A stretch of DNA of 64,000 bases. Source: Peribacillus simplex. GTDB taxonomy: Bacteria; Bacillota; Bacilli; Bacillales; DSM-1321. Below the pieces are notes generated by a model. It was not told the origin of the DNA. It was given only the letters and a program-made list of their open reading frames with translations, and made no database searches. The translations under genes and the position numbers were made by a program. Shown piece by piece: positions 3,220 to 9,153 of this stretch; the first letter of the stretch is position 1, and every line of letters starts with the position of its first letter. Location: NCBI RefSeq assembly GCF_900156045.1, contig NZ_FTMX01000004.1:124001-188000 (forward strand), in the 5' to 3' direction.

Positions 3220-4377
3220 TTATTTTGGCAGCCAGCTGCTCATATACGCATCATCTTCTATAGCGTGTGCTTCTTTTACGATATACAGCGGACGGAATGT
3301 ATCGACCATGACTGCTAATTCACGCGTTTCTTTTTTACCGATACTTGCTTCAATTTTACCTGGATGCGGACCATGAGGTAAGCCGCTTGGATGAAGGGTA
3401 ATCGATCCGGTTTCGATGCCGCGGCGGCTCATGAAGTCTCCATCCACATAATATAGCACTTCATCACTTTCCACATTGCTGTGGACATAAGGAGCAGGGA
3501 TGGCTTCTGGGTGATAGTCATACATACGTGGTACAAATGAACATACAACATAATTATGTGCTTCAAACGTCTGATGAACTGGCGGTGGCTGATGAACACG
3601 TCCGGTTATTGGTTCAAAATCATGAATGCTGAACGCATAAGGGAAGAGGTAACCATCCCATCCAACCGCATCAAGCGGATGAAAATCATACGTATAGGAT
3701 GTGATCATGCCTTGTGCACGCACTCTGATTTCATATTCTCCTTTTTCATCTTTAGGCTCCAATTTTTCTGGTGTCCGGAAATCACGCTCACAATATGGCG
3801 AGTGCTCAAGAAGTTGGCCAAACTCATTACGATAGCGTTTTGGTGGTACAATTGATGAATTCGATTCAAGGATGAAAAATCGAGCTTCTTCTGATTCCAA
3901 GACTACGCGATACGTGGTGCCAATCGGAATGATGAGATAGTCACCTGGCCAAAAGCTTAGTTCACCGAAAATACTTTCGATTTTGCCTCTTCCTTCATGG
4001 ACAAACAACATTTCATCACCCTCACCGTTTCGATAAAAGTAATCCATTTGCTGGTTAGGGCGAGCAACGCCAAGTGCAACATCATCGTTTGCCATGAAAA
4101 TTTTGCGAGCTTCAAGAAAATCGCCGCCAACATCCGTATTCCATGTCCGGAAATGACGATGTTTTAATGCATCTTTTTCTTCATATTCATAACGAACATC
4201 ACGAATTTTTTGTGCTTTTTTTACTTGTGTTGGTTGATTGATATGATAAATGAGTGACTGAATACTCGAGAAACCTTTCGTACCCATCAATTGCTCATAA
4301 TATATGCTTCCGTCCTCCTGGCGAAACTGAGTATGACGTTTATGGGGAATGCGGCCCATTTTAACATAATGTGTCAT
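3220..4377 (-). CDS. hmgA: homogentisate 1,2-dioxygenase
   Basis: A 385-residue cupin-fold Fe(II) ring-cleaving dioxygenase. It converts homogentisate to maleylacetoacetate in tyrosine/phenylalanine breakdown. C-terminal metal-site motifs are visible (HSNVESDEVLYYVDGDF and LHPSGLPHGPHPG), and an N-terminal cupin half holds FVHEGRGKIESIFG. It is the shorter Bacillus type, below the roughly 430-440 residues of animal and proteobacterial forms. AAGGAG lies 8 nt before the ATG. It is the last gene of the minus-strand operon hppD - 6661..5720 - fahA - hmgA, 50 bp after fahA. Confidence 0.93.
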   Translation of the reverse strand: MTHYVKMGRIPHKRHTQFRQEDGSIYYEQLMGTKGFSSIQSLIYHINQPTQVKKAQKIRDVRYEYEEKDALKHRHFRTWNTDVGGDFLEARKIFMANDDVALGVARPNQQMDYFYRNGEGDEMLFVHEGRGKIESIFGELSFWPGDYLIIPIGTTYRVVLESEEARFFILESNSSIVPPKRYRNEFGQLLEHSPYCERDFRTPEKLEPKDEKGEYEIRVRAQGMITSYTYDFHPLDAVGWDGYLFPYAFSIHDFEPITGRVHQPPPVHQTFEAHNYVVCSFVPRMYDYHPEAIPAPYVHSNVESDEVLYYVDGDFMSRRGIETGSITLHPSGLPHGPHPGKIEASIGKKETRELAVMVDTFRPLYIVKEAHAIEDDAYMSSWLPK

Positions 4378-4427: not shown

Positions 4428-5723
4428 CTAAATCTTCATTTTTTGATTGCCTAAAATCTGTGCCTCCGAAAGGGCTGGTAAAACTTGACCGCTTACTTGA
4501 CCAAATCCAATTCGATACCCATCTCCTTGACACCACCCGCTGATAGTCAACTTGTCCCCATCTTCAATCCAGCTTCGTTCACCGCCGTCGTTAAGTTGAA
4601 GCGGTTCTGTGCCGCGCCAAGAAAGTTCAAGGAGGCTGCCTCGTTCTTCACGGCTTGGACCGCTGATAGTTCCAGATCCATGCATGTCACCAGGACGGAT
4701 ATTACAGCCTGTAATGGTATGGTGAGCGACTTGCTGAGCGATTGACCAATACATATAGCTAAAGTTGGTATTCGTAATTCTGGTTGCTTGTTCTGTATTT
4801 TCTGGTGCCAAATGAACTTCAAGGTTAATATTAAATGCTCCATCTTTTGTTTGCTGCAAGTAGGGAAACGGCTCTGGATCCTGTTGCGGTCCAGCAGTAC
4901 GGAAAGGTTCCAGCGCTTCTAGCGGCACAACCCATGGCGAAATGGATGTTGCAAAGCTTTTTGAAAGAAAAGGGCCAAGAGGCTGGTACTCCCATGCTTG
5001 GATATCACGTGCACTCCAGTCATTTACGAGTACGAGCCCGAAAACATGATTTTCTGCCTGATTAACTGGAATTGGTTCTCCAAGAGGGTTGCCAGTTCCA
5101 ATAAACCAGCCCATTTCAAGTTCGAAATCAAGCTGTATAGATGGACCAAATACTGGATAATCTGCACCCGTTGGTTTGCGTTGTCCCGAAGGGCGACGCA
5201 CATGGGTACCACTTGGTACGATGGAACTGGCACGTCCATGGTAACCAATCGGCAAGTGTGTCCAGTTTGACATGAGGGCATTGTCTTTCCCTCTGAAAAT
5301 TGTACCCACATTGGTCGCATGCTCTCTTGAGGCATAGAAATCTGTATAGTCTCCAATATCTGCAGGAAGAAGCATCTCTACATCTGTCAATGGGTGAAAC
5401 GCTTTCAAACGAAGCTCTTCATTATCTCGTAAATCAGGCGTTTTCGAATCCAAAAGGTATTGAAGTTTGTTACGTACAGCAGTCCAGACAGGACGGCCAA
5501 GTGACATAAATTGATTAAGAGAGGAAGAGGAAAAAACTTTTTTTTCTTCTGCACCGGTCCCACTTAGCAATCCAACTTCATCGATTACAGATAAATCAAG
5601 AACATAATCACCGATGGCTGTACCGGCACGGGGACTTTGCCCTTTTTTTTGGAAAATGCCGTATGGCAAGTTTTGAATTGGAAAATGTGATTCTGGTGTT
5701 GTCTCAATAAAGGAATGTTTCAT
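4428..5723 (-). CDS. fahA: fumarylacetoacetase
   Basis: A 431-residue enzyme that hydrolyses fumarylacetoacetate to fumarate and acetoacetate, the last step of tyrosine catabolism. It has the two-domain layout: a small N-terminal SH3-like domain (about 1-120), then the FAH hydrolase domain. The DFYASREHATNVG segment carries the catalytic His, followed by LPIGYHGRASS, and metal ligands occur in the LDFELEMGWFIG region. The ATG overlaps the stop of the preceding gene by 4 nt (ATGA), so the two are translationally coupled. Confidence 0.95.
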   Translation of the reverse strand: MKHSFIETTPESHFPIQNLPYGIFQKKGQSPRAGTAIGDYVLDLSVIDEVGLLSGTGAEEKKVFSSSSLNQFMSLGRPVWTAVRNKLQYLLDSKTPDLRDNEELRLKAFHPLTDVEMLLPADIGDYTDFYASREHATNVGTIFRGKDNALMSNWTHLPIGYHGRASSIVPSGTHVRRPSGQRKPTGADYPVFGPSIQLDFELEMGWFIGTGNPLGEPIPVNQAENHVFGLVLVNDWSARDIQAWEYQPLGPFLSKSFATSISPWVVPLEALEPFRTAGPQQDPEPFPYLQQTKDGAFNINLEVHLAPENTEQATRITNTNFSYMYWSIAQQVAHHTITGCNIRPGDMHGSGTISGPSREERGSLLELSWRGTEPLQLNDGGERSWIEDGDKLTISGWCQGDGYRIGFGQVSGQVLPALSEAQILGNQKMKI

Positions 5724-6661
5724 CGTACTGCCTCCCCATGAAAAATAGTTAGCTCTCCTAGTTCTTCCTGAGGCTCATTAAAGCTGCAGCTTCCATATGA
5801 AGCTGCAAAGAAACTGCGCGCTTTGAAGATATCGGCCGAACTGACAGTAAAATCGCGCCAGGAAAGCGAGTCTGTTGTAAATGAAAAATTTGTTGGGTCT
5901 TCATCAAGCAAAATGGCTTGAATGGTTGCTGTATTGACAGAACGGCTATATGCCAAAATAGAAGCGGTAAATACGTTAACAAAACCATGCATACGTGTTT
6001 CCACTTCCGTTCGGTACTGGCGAATCGGATGGTGCAGTCCTGCTGTGAATTTAAGTGCCAGTTCTCGTTTCTGGCATTCGTGTATAACGAATGCGGCTTG
6101 TTTGACAGAAGGAAACAAATTAGCCGCGATTCCACCCATGCGCATTTTGATACCTATACGTTTCAGAGATTTTTGATTAATCGAATGGATGGTTTCCAAT
6201 GTATTTAGAAGTTGATCATTCGTTCCTGTCATTTCACAATAAATGGGATAACTCCCTGTTCGTTTTTCAAGATTCTCTAAGAAGGAAGAATTAATCTGTG
6301 GTGGAAGCGGAAACTCGATTGCTTCTATGGTTCCCGCGGTTTTATATGTTTCTAAAAAAAGTCGGATAGCTTCCATTTCGGTTTCGATTTCTTCGGATTT
6401 CGTTAAAATTACAGATAACCTAAGTGGATATTGATCATTAAACTGGGCTTTAAATGGTATAAGTTCACCCAATCGTGAAGCAGGAATAACAAACGGGCCG
6501 AGCATCCAGCTGTCCGATTCATGGATGTATGCATGGAAATTTGAAATAGCTTTTGGAAGCGGAAGCGCGGCCGGTGGAAATAGACCTGCATAATCTATAA
6601 GTTCGGTCATAAAATGACTGACCGCTTCTTCCCTCCACTTAACATTTACTTTAGTTAACAA
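5720..6661 (-). CDS. conserved protein of unknown function in the homogentisate operon
   Basis: A 313-residue soluble protein with no signal peptide or membrane segment. I recognise the family as widespread but uncharacterised. Conserved-looking blocks are IDYAGLFPPAALPLPKAI near the N terminus, FVIPASRLGEL, KFTAGLHHPIR, MHGFVNVFTASILAY and GSCSFNEPQEELGEL at the C terminus; the alternating strand/helix pattern suggests a TIM-barrel-like fold (inference). The start is TTG at 6661, 10 nt after AGGAGG. It lies between hppD and fahA and overlaps fahA by 4 nt. Its job should therefore be in homogentisate breakdown, possibly the maleylacetoacetate isomerase step, for which no known enzyme is seen here. 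Confidence 0.85.
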   Translation of the reverse strand: MLTKVNVKWREEAVSHFMTELIDYAGLFPPAALPLPKAISNFHAYIHESDSWMLGPFVIPASRLGELIPFKAQFNDQYPLRLSVILTKSEEIETEMEAIRLFLETYKTAGTIEAIEFPLPPQINSSFLENLEKRTGSYPIYCEMTGTNDQLLNTLETIHSINQKSLKRIGIKMRMGGIAANLFPSVKQAAFVIHECQKRELALKFTAGLHHPIRQYRTEVETRMHGFVNVFTASILAYSRSVNTATIQAILLDEDPTNFSFTTDSLSWRDFTVSSADIFKARSFFAASYGSCSFNEPQEELGELTIFHGEAVR

Positions 6662-6724
6662 CTACCTCACACCTCCTATTAAAGGAGGCCATACCGTGAG
6701 AGACAACGGTATGACCGTTCCAAA

Positions 6725-7846
6725 TCAAATATTTCCGCGAAGTTCTTGCTCACGTTCAATCGATTCAAACAATGCTTTAAAGTTCCCGTCGCCGAATCCA
6801 AGTGCACCTTTACGCTGAATGACTTCGATAAACAGCGTTGGACGATCAACAAGTGGTTTAGTGAAGATTTGTAGCAAGTAGCCTTCATCATCACGATCAA
6901 CCAAAATATTAAGTTCTTGAAGTCGTTTCACATCTTCATCAATATTTCCTACACGATCGGCAAGTTCTTTATAATAAGTCTCAGGGGTATTTAAAAATTC
7001 CACACCATTTTCTTTGAGGGCAGCCACCGTCCCGATGATATCGTTTGTCAAAAGGGCAAGATGCTGAACACCTGGTCCATTATAGTAATCTAGGTATTCT
7101 TGAATTTGAGACTTTCGCTTTCCTTCCGCAGGCTCATTAATTGGGAACTTAATGCGTCCTGTTCCATTCATCATGACTTTTGACATCAAAGCAGAGTACT
7201 CGGTCGAAATGTCTTCATCATCAAAATGCTTGAGTACTGTAAAACCGAATGCATTTTCATAATAGTTTGTCCATTCTTCCATAACTTCCACATTACCAAC
7301 AAGGTGGTCAACACCAATTAAACCGGTTGGTTGAGATTTAAATGTGTCCTCGCGAGCTTCGAACCCTGGCATAAATACGCCTTTATAATCGATTGGTTCA
7401 ATAAGCGTATGAATTGTATCCCCATATGTACCTAGAATCGCTTTTTTCACCTTGCCGTTTTCATCTTCTTCCACCCATGGTTCCCGAAGAGCGATGCCAC
7501 CTCGTTCTATCGCACCCGCAAATGTTTTATCCAGATCTTTTACGAGGAGGGCGATATCTTTTACACCCTCGCCATGAAGTTTAATAAACTCGGCAACGTC
7601 TGTATCGTCTGATAAGGTGCCTGTTAAAATCAATCGGATAGCACCCTGTTCCATCACGTAAGATACACGGTCACGGGAACCTGTTTCTAATCCTTTATAT
7701 GCTACAAGTTTGAAACCGAAAGATTTTGCATAGTAATAAGCTGCCAGCTTTGCGTTTCCTGTATAGATTTCTACGTAATGAACATTCTTTACCGGGAACA
7801 ATTCTTCTTTTTTTGCTTTAGGTGATGCTACCATTTTTTCTGACAT
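6725..7846 (-). CDS. hppD: 4-hydroxyphenylpyruvate dioxygenase
   Basis: A 373-residue Fe(II) dioxygenase of the vicinal-oxygen-chelate fold. It converts 4-hydroxyphenylpyruvate to homogentisate. Two VOC halves are visible, and the likely iron ligands are His in GVDHLVG, His in GVQHLALLTND and Glu in LFIEVIQRKG. The ATG at 7846 is preferred because AAGGAG lies 8 nt upstream; an in-frame GTG at 7855 abuts the ribosome binding site. It is the first gene of the tyrosine operon and sets its promoter region at about 7850-8080. Confidence 0.95.
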   Translation of the reverse strand: MSEKMVASPKAKKEELFPVKNVHYVEIYTGNAKLAAYYYAKSFGFKLVAYKGLETGSRDRVSYVMEQGAIRLILTGTLSDDTDVAEFIKLHGEGVKDIALLVKDLDKTFAGAIERGGIALREPWVEEDENGKVKKAILGTYGDTIHTLIEPIDYKGVFMPGFEAREDTFKSQPTGLIGVDHLVGNVEVMEEWTNYYENAFGFTVLKHFDDEDISTEYSALMSKVMMNGTGRIKFPINEPAEGKRKSQIQEYLDYYNGPGVQHLALLTNDIIGTVAALKENGVEFLNTPETYYKELADRVGNIDEDVKRLQELNILVDRDDEGYLLQIFTKPLVDRPTLFIEVIQRKGALGFGDGNFKALFESIEREQELRGNI

Positions 7847-7943
7847 TTTAACCACTCCTTTATCATTTTTAACTTTTAAGAAACAGAATTTTCGAAATTC
7901 GGATTCTGTAATGTTTCACATCTTAATCTATAAAAATCCAACG

Positions 7944-8087: not shown

Positions 8088-8333
8088 ATGAAAATTAACG
8101 TAAAGTTCTGTCCATGTAATTTCGAAGACGAGTTGGAAACTATAAAGGGAAAATTAATTGAGCGCAGCGACTTGGAGGTTATTGAGGATAAGTGCTTGTT
8201 ATATTGCGGTCAATGTTTGATGGACCCATTTGCACTTATAAATGGTGAAAATATTGTTGCTGACGATCCGGATGAACTTTATAAAAAAATCAATCAATAT
8301 GTGGCTAGCATTAAACCAAGGGAAACTGTGTAA
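8088..8333 (+). CDS. DUF1450 (YuzB-like) small protein
   Basis: An 81-residue protein of the DUF1450/YuzB family, function unknown. It has cysteines in FCPCNF (residues 7 and 9) and CLLYCGQC, followed by the family's usual FALINGE segment. The paired cysteines suggest a metal or thioredoxin-like fold (inference). The start is ATG 8088, with AGGGGAG 6 nt upstream; the longer frame from 8019 has no ribosome binding site. It is divergent from hppD and probably stands alone. Confidence 0.75.
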   Translation: MKINVKFCPCNFEDELETIKGKLIERSDLEVIEDKCLLYCGQCLMDPFALINGENIVADDPDELYKKINQYVASIKPRETV

Positions 8334-8453
8334 AACGAAGAATAAAAAAATTTTTTGATAGATGTTTTGATCGAGAATTGTATTTTTAGGGTTGTTACCA
8401 TCCGCAAACTTGAGGCCTTCAGAAGGGATCTATGTATGATAAAATATAAGTAT

Positions 8454-8482
8454 GCCCTACTCCAAATTGATGATAGTAGGGC
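8454..8482 (+). terminator. hairpin upstream of the proteasome-like gene
   Basis: A perfect 8-bp stem (GCCCTACT with AGTAGGGC) and 13-base loop are followed by CTTATTTTTATT. It ends 30 nt before the next ATG. It may terminate the DUF1450 transcript or sit in the 5' leader of the next gene as a control element. Confidence 0.5.
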
Positions 8483-8511
8483 CTTATTTTTATTCTGAAG
8501 GGAATTTAATT

Positions 8512-9153
8512 ATGACTGCATTAATTGGTAAAAAGTTCGAAAATGGTGTTTTTATCATGGCTGATAAAAGAATAACCTACAGAGGGACTGAAAACTTTAG
8601 TGATGATGAAAAAAAAGTAATAGCATTAAATCAAAATGTGATCTTTGCCTTTGCGGGTGTTAAAAATATCATCGATATATGTATGGAAGAACTAAAAATG
8701 TTTTCACTTGGAACAATTTCAATTGAAGAAATCGAGGCTCAATCACAAAGAATGTTTAGAAATTCATTGGAGATATTCAAGAAGTTATATCCTGAACAAG
8801 ATTATGCAACTGTTTATATATTGGCAGGGGTTACAGCTGATGGTATACCTCGTGTCACTTACTTCTCTTCAGATGATGATTTTCAAAAAAGCAATCCTCT
8901 CGACTTTTTTTATAAAACGTTTCCGAATACAGAAATGATGTACCTTGGGAATTATTTAATAAATAAAGTGGATGACACCAGAACAGATATGAGTTATTTT
9001 ATCAATAAATTTTCTTCAGCCATCCGTCAGATAAACAATGAAAAGGTCAGTAAGGCTACGTATTCTTTATTCTTAACCAAAAATGGCTTATTTGAGATAG
9101 ACGTTGATGAGGATGGAATTATTAAGGTTGACCATATGAATCTTGATTGTTAA
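8512..9153 (+). CDS. stand-alone proteasome-like Ntn hydrolase
   Basis: A 213-residue protein with the N-terminal signature of 20S proteasome beta subunits and HslV. After removal of the initiator Met the chain begins with Thr, and Asp17 (IMADKR) and Lys33 (DDEKKV) then fall at the canonical spacing of the Thr1/Asp17/Lys33 catalytic set. FAFAGVKN corresponds to the usual AGV/AGS turn. There is no propeptide if the ATG at 8512 (GAAGGGA 9 nt upstream) is used; a longer frame from 8452 runs through a hairpin. It is distinct from hslV, since no hslU is adjacent. Peptidase or amidase activity is inferred, and the substrate is unknown. Confidence 0.75.
   Translation: MTALIGKKFENGVFIMADKRITYRGTENFSDDEKKVIALNQNVIFAFAGVKNIIDICMEELKMFSLGTISIEEIEAQSQRMFRNSLEIFKKLYPEQDYATVYILAGVTADGIPRVTYFSSDDDFQKSNPLDFFYKTFPNTEMMYLGNYLINKVDDTRTDMSYFINKFSSAIRQINNEKVSKATYSLFLTKNGLFEIDVDEDGIIKVDHMNLDC

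Follow-up and report, generated by a model that had tools for sequence, protein, structure and literature searches.

A predicted barrel protein encoded beside fumarylacetoacetase as a candidate glutathione-independent maleylacetoacetate isomerase

The GST fold consists of a thioredoxin-like domain joined to a helical domain. GSTs of the zeta class isomerize maleylacetoacetate when glutathione is present, as described in the available part of PMC10950700. In B. anthracis the fate of maleylacetoacetate is unclear and no isomerase gene has been identified, according to the available passages of PMC4457819, and the accessible text on a metagenome with a Bacteroidales bin reports that no maleylacetoacetate isomerase gene was found (PMC8674449). 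Excerpts on other species describe consecutive hppD, fahA and hmgA genes for B. thuringiensis (PMC6193087) and list a mycothiol-dependent gene of the maleylpyruvate isomerase type for Streptomyces, with no gene given there for the maleylacetoacetate step (PMC11012174).

The window analyzed in the current study (the whole stretch of 64,000 nucleotides from Peribacillus simplex, contig NZ_FTMX01000004.1) carries a tyrosine operon in which an ORF of an unnamed family, here called gene X, adjoins fahA. Protein X lies outside the GST-zeta family and every family of Pfam and NCBIfam, and most likely works like a maleylacetoacetate isomerase. Judged by its genome context, it is probably the glutathione-independent enzyme for this step in the operon. 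The proposed reaction is the same as that of GST-zeta MaiA (TIGR01262, EC 5.2.1.2), and both genes are found beside fahA, whereas MaiA is a GST of about 210 aa and the 313-residue X, which has no sequence match to it, is predicted to fold as a (beta/alpha)8 barrel; the two are unrelated in sequence as well as in predicted fold. Unlike the setting of MaiA, the X genomes searched held neither MaiA nor glutathione synthetase over the cut-off. If the assignment is correct, X would add a non-homologous enzyme to EC 5.2.1.2 and would explain the homogentisate pathway in many organisms without glutathione. Its family, which spans many phyla and has no Pfam or NCBIfam match, is a candidate for filling the isomerase gaps reported in the available parts of the studies on B. 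anthracis (PMC4457819) and the Bacteroidales bin (PMC8674449).

Operon organization and absence of MaiA

On the minus strand of the window the genes are arranged in the order hppD-X-fahA-hmgA. The product of hppD (6725-7855), 4-hydroxyphenylpyruvate dioxygenase, scored 446 bits against TIGR01263 (cut-off 277), and that of fahA (4428-5723), a fumarylacetoacetase of the canonical long form, 613 bits against TIGR01266 (cut-off 375). HmgA (3220-4377) is a divergent, short homogentisate 1,2-dioxygenase, with a match to Pfam HgmA_N at 3e-13 and a score of 64 bits against the NCBIfam hmgA model TIGR01015 (cut-off 511). The original prediction had placed a gene for a 313-residue protein between hppD and fahA, translationally coupled to fahA, and the ORF (5720-6661, minus strand, TTG start) was confirmed. 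The X stop TGA (5722-5720) and the fahA start ATG (5723-5721) form an ATGA at 5720-5723 on the minus strand, an arrangement that suggests translational coupling.

The ribosome-binding site of X, AGGAGGTG (6670-6677, minus strand), precedes the TTG start by about 8 nt. Hairpins were predicted in the gap between hppD and X (6670-6720, minus strand), and the one that covers this site (-22.7 kcal/mol, z -2.0, with 5 of 200 shuffles as good) may limit translation of X. Beyond hppD, in the opposite orientation, is a DUF1450 gene (8091-8333, plus strand); a DUF1450 gene is likewise found upstream of hppD in the operon on one Priestia plasmid. The region at 8452-9153 (plus strand) encodes a protein of 233 aa with a weak match to a proteasome subunit family (PF00227, 1e-7), in a genome of the bacillus type.

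The isomerase step had been noted as missing from the operon, leaving room for a MaiA encoded elsewhere in the genome. None was found there: TIGR01262 gave no match at E<=10 in the window's own genome (6.08 Mb in 31 contigs, 99.99% complete). The same model matched five of 14 control genomes, one of them over the cut-off. MaiA was also absent, at E<=0.01, from all 16 X-bearing genomes of the window's order, and it was over the cut-off in none of 50 X-bearing genomes of the named collection, which had been chosen from 80 loci for longer contigs and a spread of phyla; weak GST matches occurred in three of the 50. Glutathione synthetase (TIGR01380) was over the cut-off in none of these 66 genomes, compared with three of the 14 controls. 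Weaker matches to it were detected in 11 of the 66, four of them substantial (G611, G618, G621, G639), and the window's own genome gave a weak match of 47 bits.

Bacillales use bacillithiol and Actinobacteria mycothiol. Cyanobacteria generally make glutathione, and the presence of X in the cyanobacterium Kovacikia counts against the proposed glutathione-independent role of X.

The X family and its predicted structure

Protein X was predicted to belong to a conserved but unnamed family, and the searches bore this out. It had no match at E<=1 in either Pfam or NCBIfam and none at E<=10 among PDB sequences, and at least 563 relatives were confirmed in a scan of one genome per species. A known family overlooked by a single-sequence search was considered and rejected, because a scan of 86 members gave only isolated weak matches of one member each (13 Pfam families at E<=0.1, two NCBIfam families at E<=0.01). 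None of the 86 matched TIGR01262 at E<=0.01. The DinB/maleylpyruvate isomerase Pfam domain was detected neither in X (E<=1) nor among the 13 weak matches, and X matched no cofactor-binding family in Pfam or NCBIfam when the 86 members were scanned. A profile of the family gave two weak matches in the PDB (E 0.037 and 4.9). No function for X was found in the open-licence PMC literature, a weak negative whose scope is limited to such papers; the one paper there that mentions a "TIM barrel" as well as "maleylacetoacetate isomerase" deals with fungal genes and gives no function for X.

Among the matches listed, the nearest named relative was that of Neobacillus niacini (64% identity). The best 80 of the at least 563 relatives, many of them from metagenome bins, were kept for locus analysis. 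According to the record titles, their hosts include Bacillota, Verrucomicrobia, Planctomycetes, Bacteroidota and relatives, Chloroflexi and Krumholzibacteria, and further hosts are Calditrichaeota, Acidobacteria, Armatimonadetes, an acidimicrobiium, marine Euryarchaeota and a heimdallarchaeote. With at least 563 relatives in species genomes, the notion of X as a plasmid-borne curiosity was rejected. One contig titled Moorena, a cyanobacterium (L026), carries a Priestia-like hppD-X-fahA-hmgA operon whose HmgA is 84% identical to that of the window, as in Priestia plasmids; this operon is probably a binning error.

The conserved blocks seen earlier in X correspond to 21 columns that are invariant in the 86 aligned sequences, and an alignment of X with the Kovacikia, Streptomyces, Pseudonocardia and Rhodococcus proteins has 33 columns in which all five agree. 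The AlphaFold2 model, based on the alignment of 86 sequences, had a pLDDT of 93 and a pTM of 0.91. Eight strands (residues 22-24, 54-60, 80-85, 110-118, 140-143, 169-174, 203-206 and 286-291) alternate with helices, and the fold was read as a confidently predicted (beta/alpha)8 barrel. The original prediction had proposed structure prediction together with a fold search, and the latter agreed only in part: TIM barrels headed the Foldseek list, with mostly aldolase-type and dehydroquinase barrels in the top 50, but no PDB entry matched at E<=0.001 (best E 1.8e-3; none of the 50 listed entries exceeded a query-normalised TM-score of 0.44). The top matches included DERA, archaeal ADH synthase and type I dehydroquinase, which are TIM barrels of the class I aldolase type. 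X resembles these enzymes in its predicted (beta/alpha)8 fold and in its invariant lysines on strands 6 and 7, the lysine positions of DERA, but it has no significant structural match and no convincing sequence match in the PDB.

In the model, D23, E116, K172, R174, K204 and T206, all invariant in the 86 sequences, are placed in strands, with K172 in strand 6 and K204 in strand 7 (each present in 86 of 86 members). E143, found in 85 of the 86, is at the end of strand 5, H210 and H211 belong to the loop that follows strand 7, and C292 comes just after strand 8. C292 is likewise present in 85 of the 86, the remaining sequence (L100) being cut at a contig end. Beyond these 86, E116 is replaced by Ala in Kovacikia and H211 by Arg in Rhodococcus, so neither residue is universal.

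In the proposed mechanism, X would convert the cis compound made by HmgA to the trans form used by FahA, with no need for glutathione. The invariant Cys292 would do the job of the glutathione thiol, adding to the C=C bond, allowing rotation and then leaving, and Lys172 and Lys204, with Arg174, Thr206 and His210, would bind the diketo acid and polarize it, perhaps through a Schiff base. Perhaps the reaction proceeds in this way, although the roles given to cysteine and lysines are a guess from the invariant residues.

Three roles had been suggested for X: an isomerase, a chaperone-like helper of the pathway and a separate hydrolase. The chaperone-like helper is disfavored by the confident, enzyme-like barrel model with its invariant pocket. 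The isomerase is favored by genome context, because MaiA was over the cut-off in none of the 66 X genomes and X tracks canonical FahA.

Association of gene X with fahA

In a set of 299 genomes of the window's order (Bacillales), only TIGR01266 matches over the cut-off were counted as true FahA. There were 94 genomes with a match at E<=1e-10, of which 15 were over the cut-off and 79 under it. Gene X was present in all 15 genomes with FahA over the cut-off and in 16 of the 299 in total (Fisher 2e-24; this value and those given below are too small, since related genomes are not independent). In the sixteenth X genome (G427) the match stops at a contig end. The co-occurrence proposed as a check on the original prediction was therefore seen in this order, X accompanying FahA in 15 of 15 genomes and MaiA being absent from 16 of 16 X genomes. 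In a phylum-wide sample X was found in one of 299 genomes, namely the window's own. A genome of the same genus (G428, contig 8, loci L017 and L185) carries two tyrosine operons, one with a full-length X and the other with about 45 X residues kept between hppD and fahA.

These counts bear on the suggestion that X is a maleylacetoacetate hydrolase or a partner of FahA, and that the cis compound is cleaved directly to give maleate. A maleylacetoacetate hydrolase with no known gene was described in some Bacillus by Crawford 1976, as cited in the available passages of PMC4457819, and the strand 6 and strand 7 lysines of the predicted X barrel could support cleavage of a carbon-carbon bond. A direct cis-hydrolase would, however, make FahA unnecessary, and canonical fumarylacetoacetase accompanies X in 15 of the 16 X genomes of the order, the other being the one cut at a contig end; this role is therefore quite unlikely.

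Across the 80 loci, fahA was found downstream of X on the same strand in 69, with a gap of 0-447 nt (median 58), hmgA in 23 and hppD in 21. Four of the 11 loci without fahA are at a contig edge (L049, L054, L079, L100) and seven are not, so that X has no fahA beside it in seven of the 76 loci clear of contig edges, a finding that counts against the isomerase reading. In six fahA-less loci (L052, L075, L076, L086, L098, L101) a scan of one to three neighbors each revealed no pathway gene; hmgA lies upstream of X in L052.

Several operons share a similar organization. The order is hppD-hmgA-X-fahA in marine Euryarchaeota (L061, L062, L069, L090), hppD-X-fahA-hisC-type aminotransferase-hmgA on Priestia plasmids, and hmgA-X-fahA on Pseudonocardia and Rhodococcus plasmids. 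The gene between hmgA and fahA on Rhodococcus pNit, annotated as hypothetical, is a member of the X family. In all of these operons X is the sole pathway gene without an assigned step.

Plasmid records were also searched by tblastn, which gave 21 records with X as the query and 16 with the Rhodococcus homolog, or 23 combined, assuming that one unlisted record of the X query is the Nonomuraea record of the Rhodococcus search. FahA was found in 119 plasmid records and MaiA-like proteins in 228; the ten commonest genera among the latter are all Proteobacteria, with 48 further genera beyond these. Nine plasmid records were opened. Seven contained X (L018-L022, L147, L149), with fahA beside it in each case, and the Neorhizobium record (L146) had hmgA-fahA-maiA, with MaiA present and no X between. 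In the ninth, from Nocardia farcinica (L148), fahA follows hmgA directly and no X was found, which counts against the isomerase reading.

The Nocardia hmgA-fahA arrangement is easier to reconcile with X as an accessory protein, acting in damage control of by-products (maleylacetone, succinylacetoacetate) or as a helper of FahA, with isomerization occurring non-enzymatically via thiols or through a bacillithiol- or mycothiol-dependent enzyme of the DinB type encoded elsewhere. A maleylpyruvate-isomerase-like gene on one Streptomyces plasmid, about 4 kb and several genes away from X-fahA, points in the same direction. Such a role is nevertheless unlikely, given that X and FahA stay together in different phyla and in archaea, and that X fills the only unassigned step in several operons.

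Bacteroidota and the flavin-reductase-like gene

The assignment of X as the isomerase was examined further in the phylum of L078 (titled Bacteroidetes), from which 247 genomes were sampled. FahA was present in 90, and the first 80 of these were analyzed. None had MaiA (TIGR01262 at E<=0.001). X was detected at E<=1e-5 in 31 of the 80, and with 49 FahA-bearing genomes lacking it, a number that counts against the isomerase reading, the rule that FahA without MaiA always means X was rejected. The X scores fell into 25 genomes with at least 243.9 bits and six with at most 194.2 bits, a split chosen after the scores had been viewed. In all 25 high-scoring proteins K172, R174, K204, T206, H210, H211 and C292 were retained, and in one (G727) E143 was replaced by Gly. 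Of the 25 high-scoring genes, 18 lay no more than 500 nt from fahA and 23 no more than 5 kb.

When X-lacking fahA loci were opened, six of 20 showed a protein of about 270-300 aa near fahA. One member scanned was a flavin-reductase-like protein (PF01613), and the proteins of this type (about 290 aa; L165:3123-4019, L178:2042-2935 and others) had no NCBIfam match at E<=1e-5. A profile built from ten members gave a copy of more than 330 bits in 47 of the 80 genomes, the next best genome scoring 190 bits; the score line was put in this 190-330 bit gap after the scores had been viewed. By these measures, 24 of the 80 genomes have high-scoring X alone, one (G712) has both genes, six have the flavin-type gene with a low-scoring X, 40 have the flavin-type gene and no X, and nine have neither. 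The available text on the Bacteroidales bin also describes a flavin reductase gene, together with an isomerase/cyclase-like gene, beside hmgA, hppD and fahA (PMC8674449).

The flavin-type gene was thus rare in genomes with high-scoring X (one of 25; Fisher 5e-12, or 4e-7 with any X). This exclusion gives weaker support than it appears to, because only 19 of the 47 copies lie 5 kb or less from fahA, and a test restricted to these gives a Fisher value of 0.004. Of the 28 distant copies, 20 were opened, and none had a fahA, hmgA or hppD gene in the surrounding 4 kb or so. The pattern may thus be a matter of taxonomy, and the view of the flavin-type gene as the plain Bacteroidota counterpart of X was weakened accordingly; the isomerase role of X also became slightly less likely. 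Both proteins are encoded near fahA in some genomes and the flavin-type gene seldom resides together with an intact X, but the two belong to unrelated families and the flavin-type gene is away from fahA in 28 of 47 genomes. It is possible that the flavin-type protein is another maleylacetoacetate enzyme, or it may be unrelated, and the notion of a third isomerase is no more than a lead.

The family assignment of this gene also bears on a bypass of isomerization, in which X would reduce maleylacetoacetate to succinylacetoacetate. FahA also splits succinylacetoacetate, and in Bacteroidota X tends to exclude a flavin-reductase-like gene (PF01613, one member scanned). X itself has no match to any cofactor-binding family, and such a bypass is very improbable.

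Neither X, a full-length flavin-type gene nor MaiA was found in nine of the 80 genomes, all of which have a shorter, lower-scoring flavin-reductase match. No candidate enzyme was seen among the sampled neighbors and cluster members scanned around fahA in five of the nine (G656, G673, G677, G704, G799). The step may therefore need no dedicated enzyme, or further kinds may exist, and these nine genomes speak for the accessory role of X described above.

With X taken as the isomerase, it is conceivable, though somewhat doubtful, that at least three unrelated solutions exist for the maleylacetoacetate step. These would be the glutathione-dependent MaiA, the barrel protein X in lineages that mostly lack glutathione (Bacillales, Actinobacteria, Verrucomicrobia, Planctomycetes, marine archaea and others), and a protein of the flavin-reductase-like type in those Bacteroidota in which X would have been lost or have decayed.

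The six low-scoring X-like copies in Bacteroidota all coexist with the flavin-reductase-like gene. All six have lost R174, T206, H210 and C292, and all are located on another contig than fahA or more than 200 kb from it. The fahA regions of three genomes (G689, G720, G768) were opened and contained no X. The six paralogs without the pocket (L170-L175) may have taken on a new function or be in decay, and most of them share HemN-like, HU and rhodanese-like neighbors.
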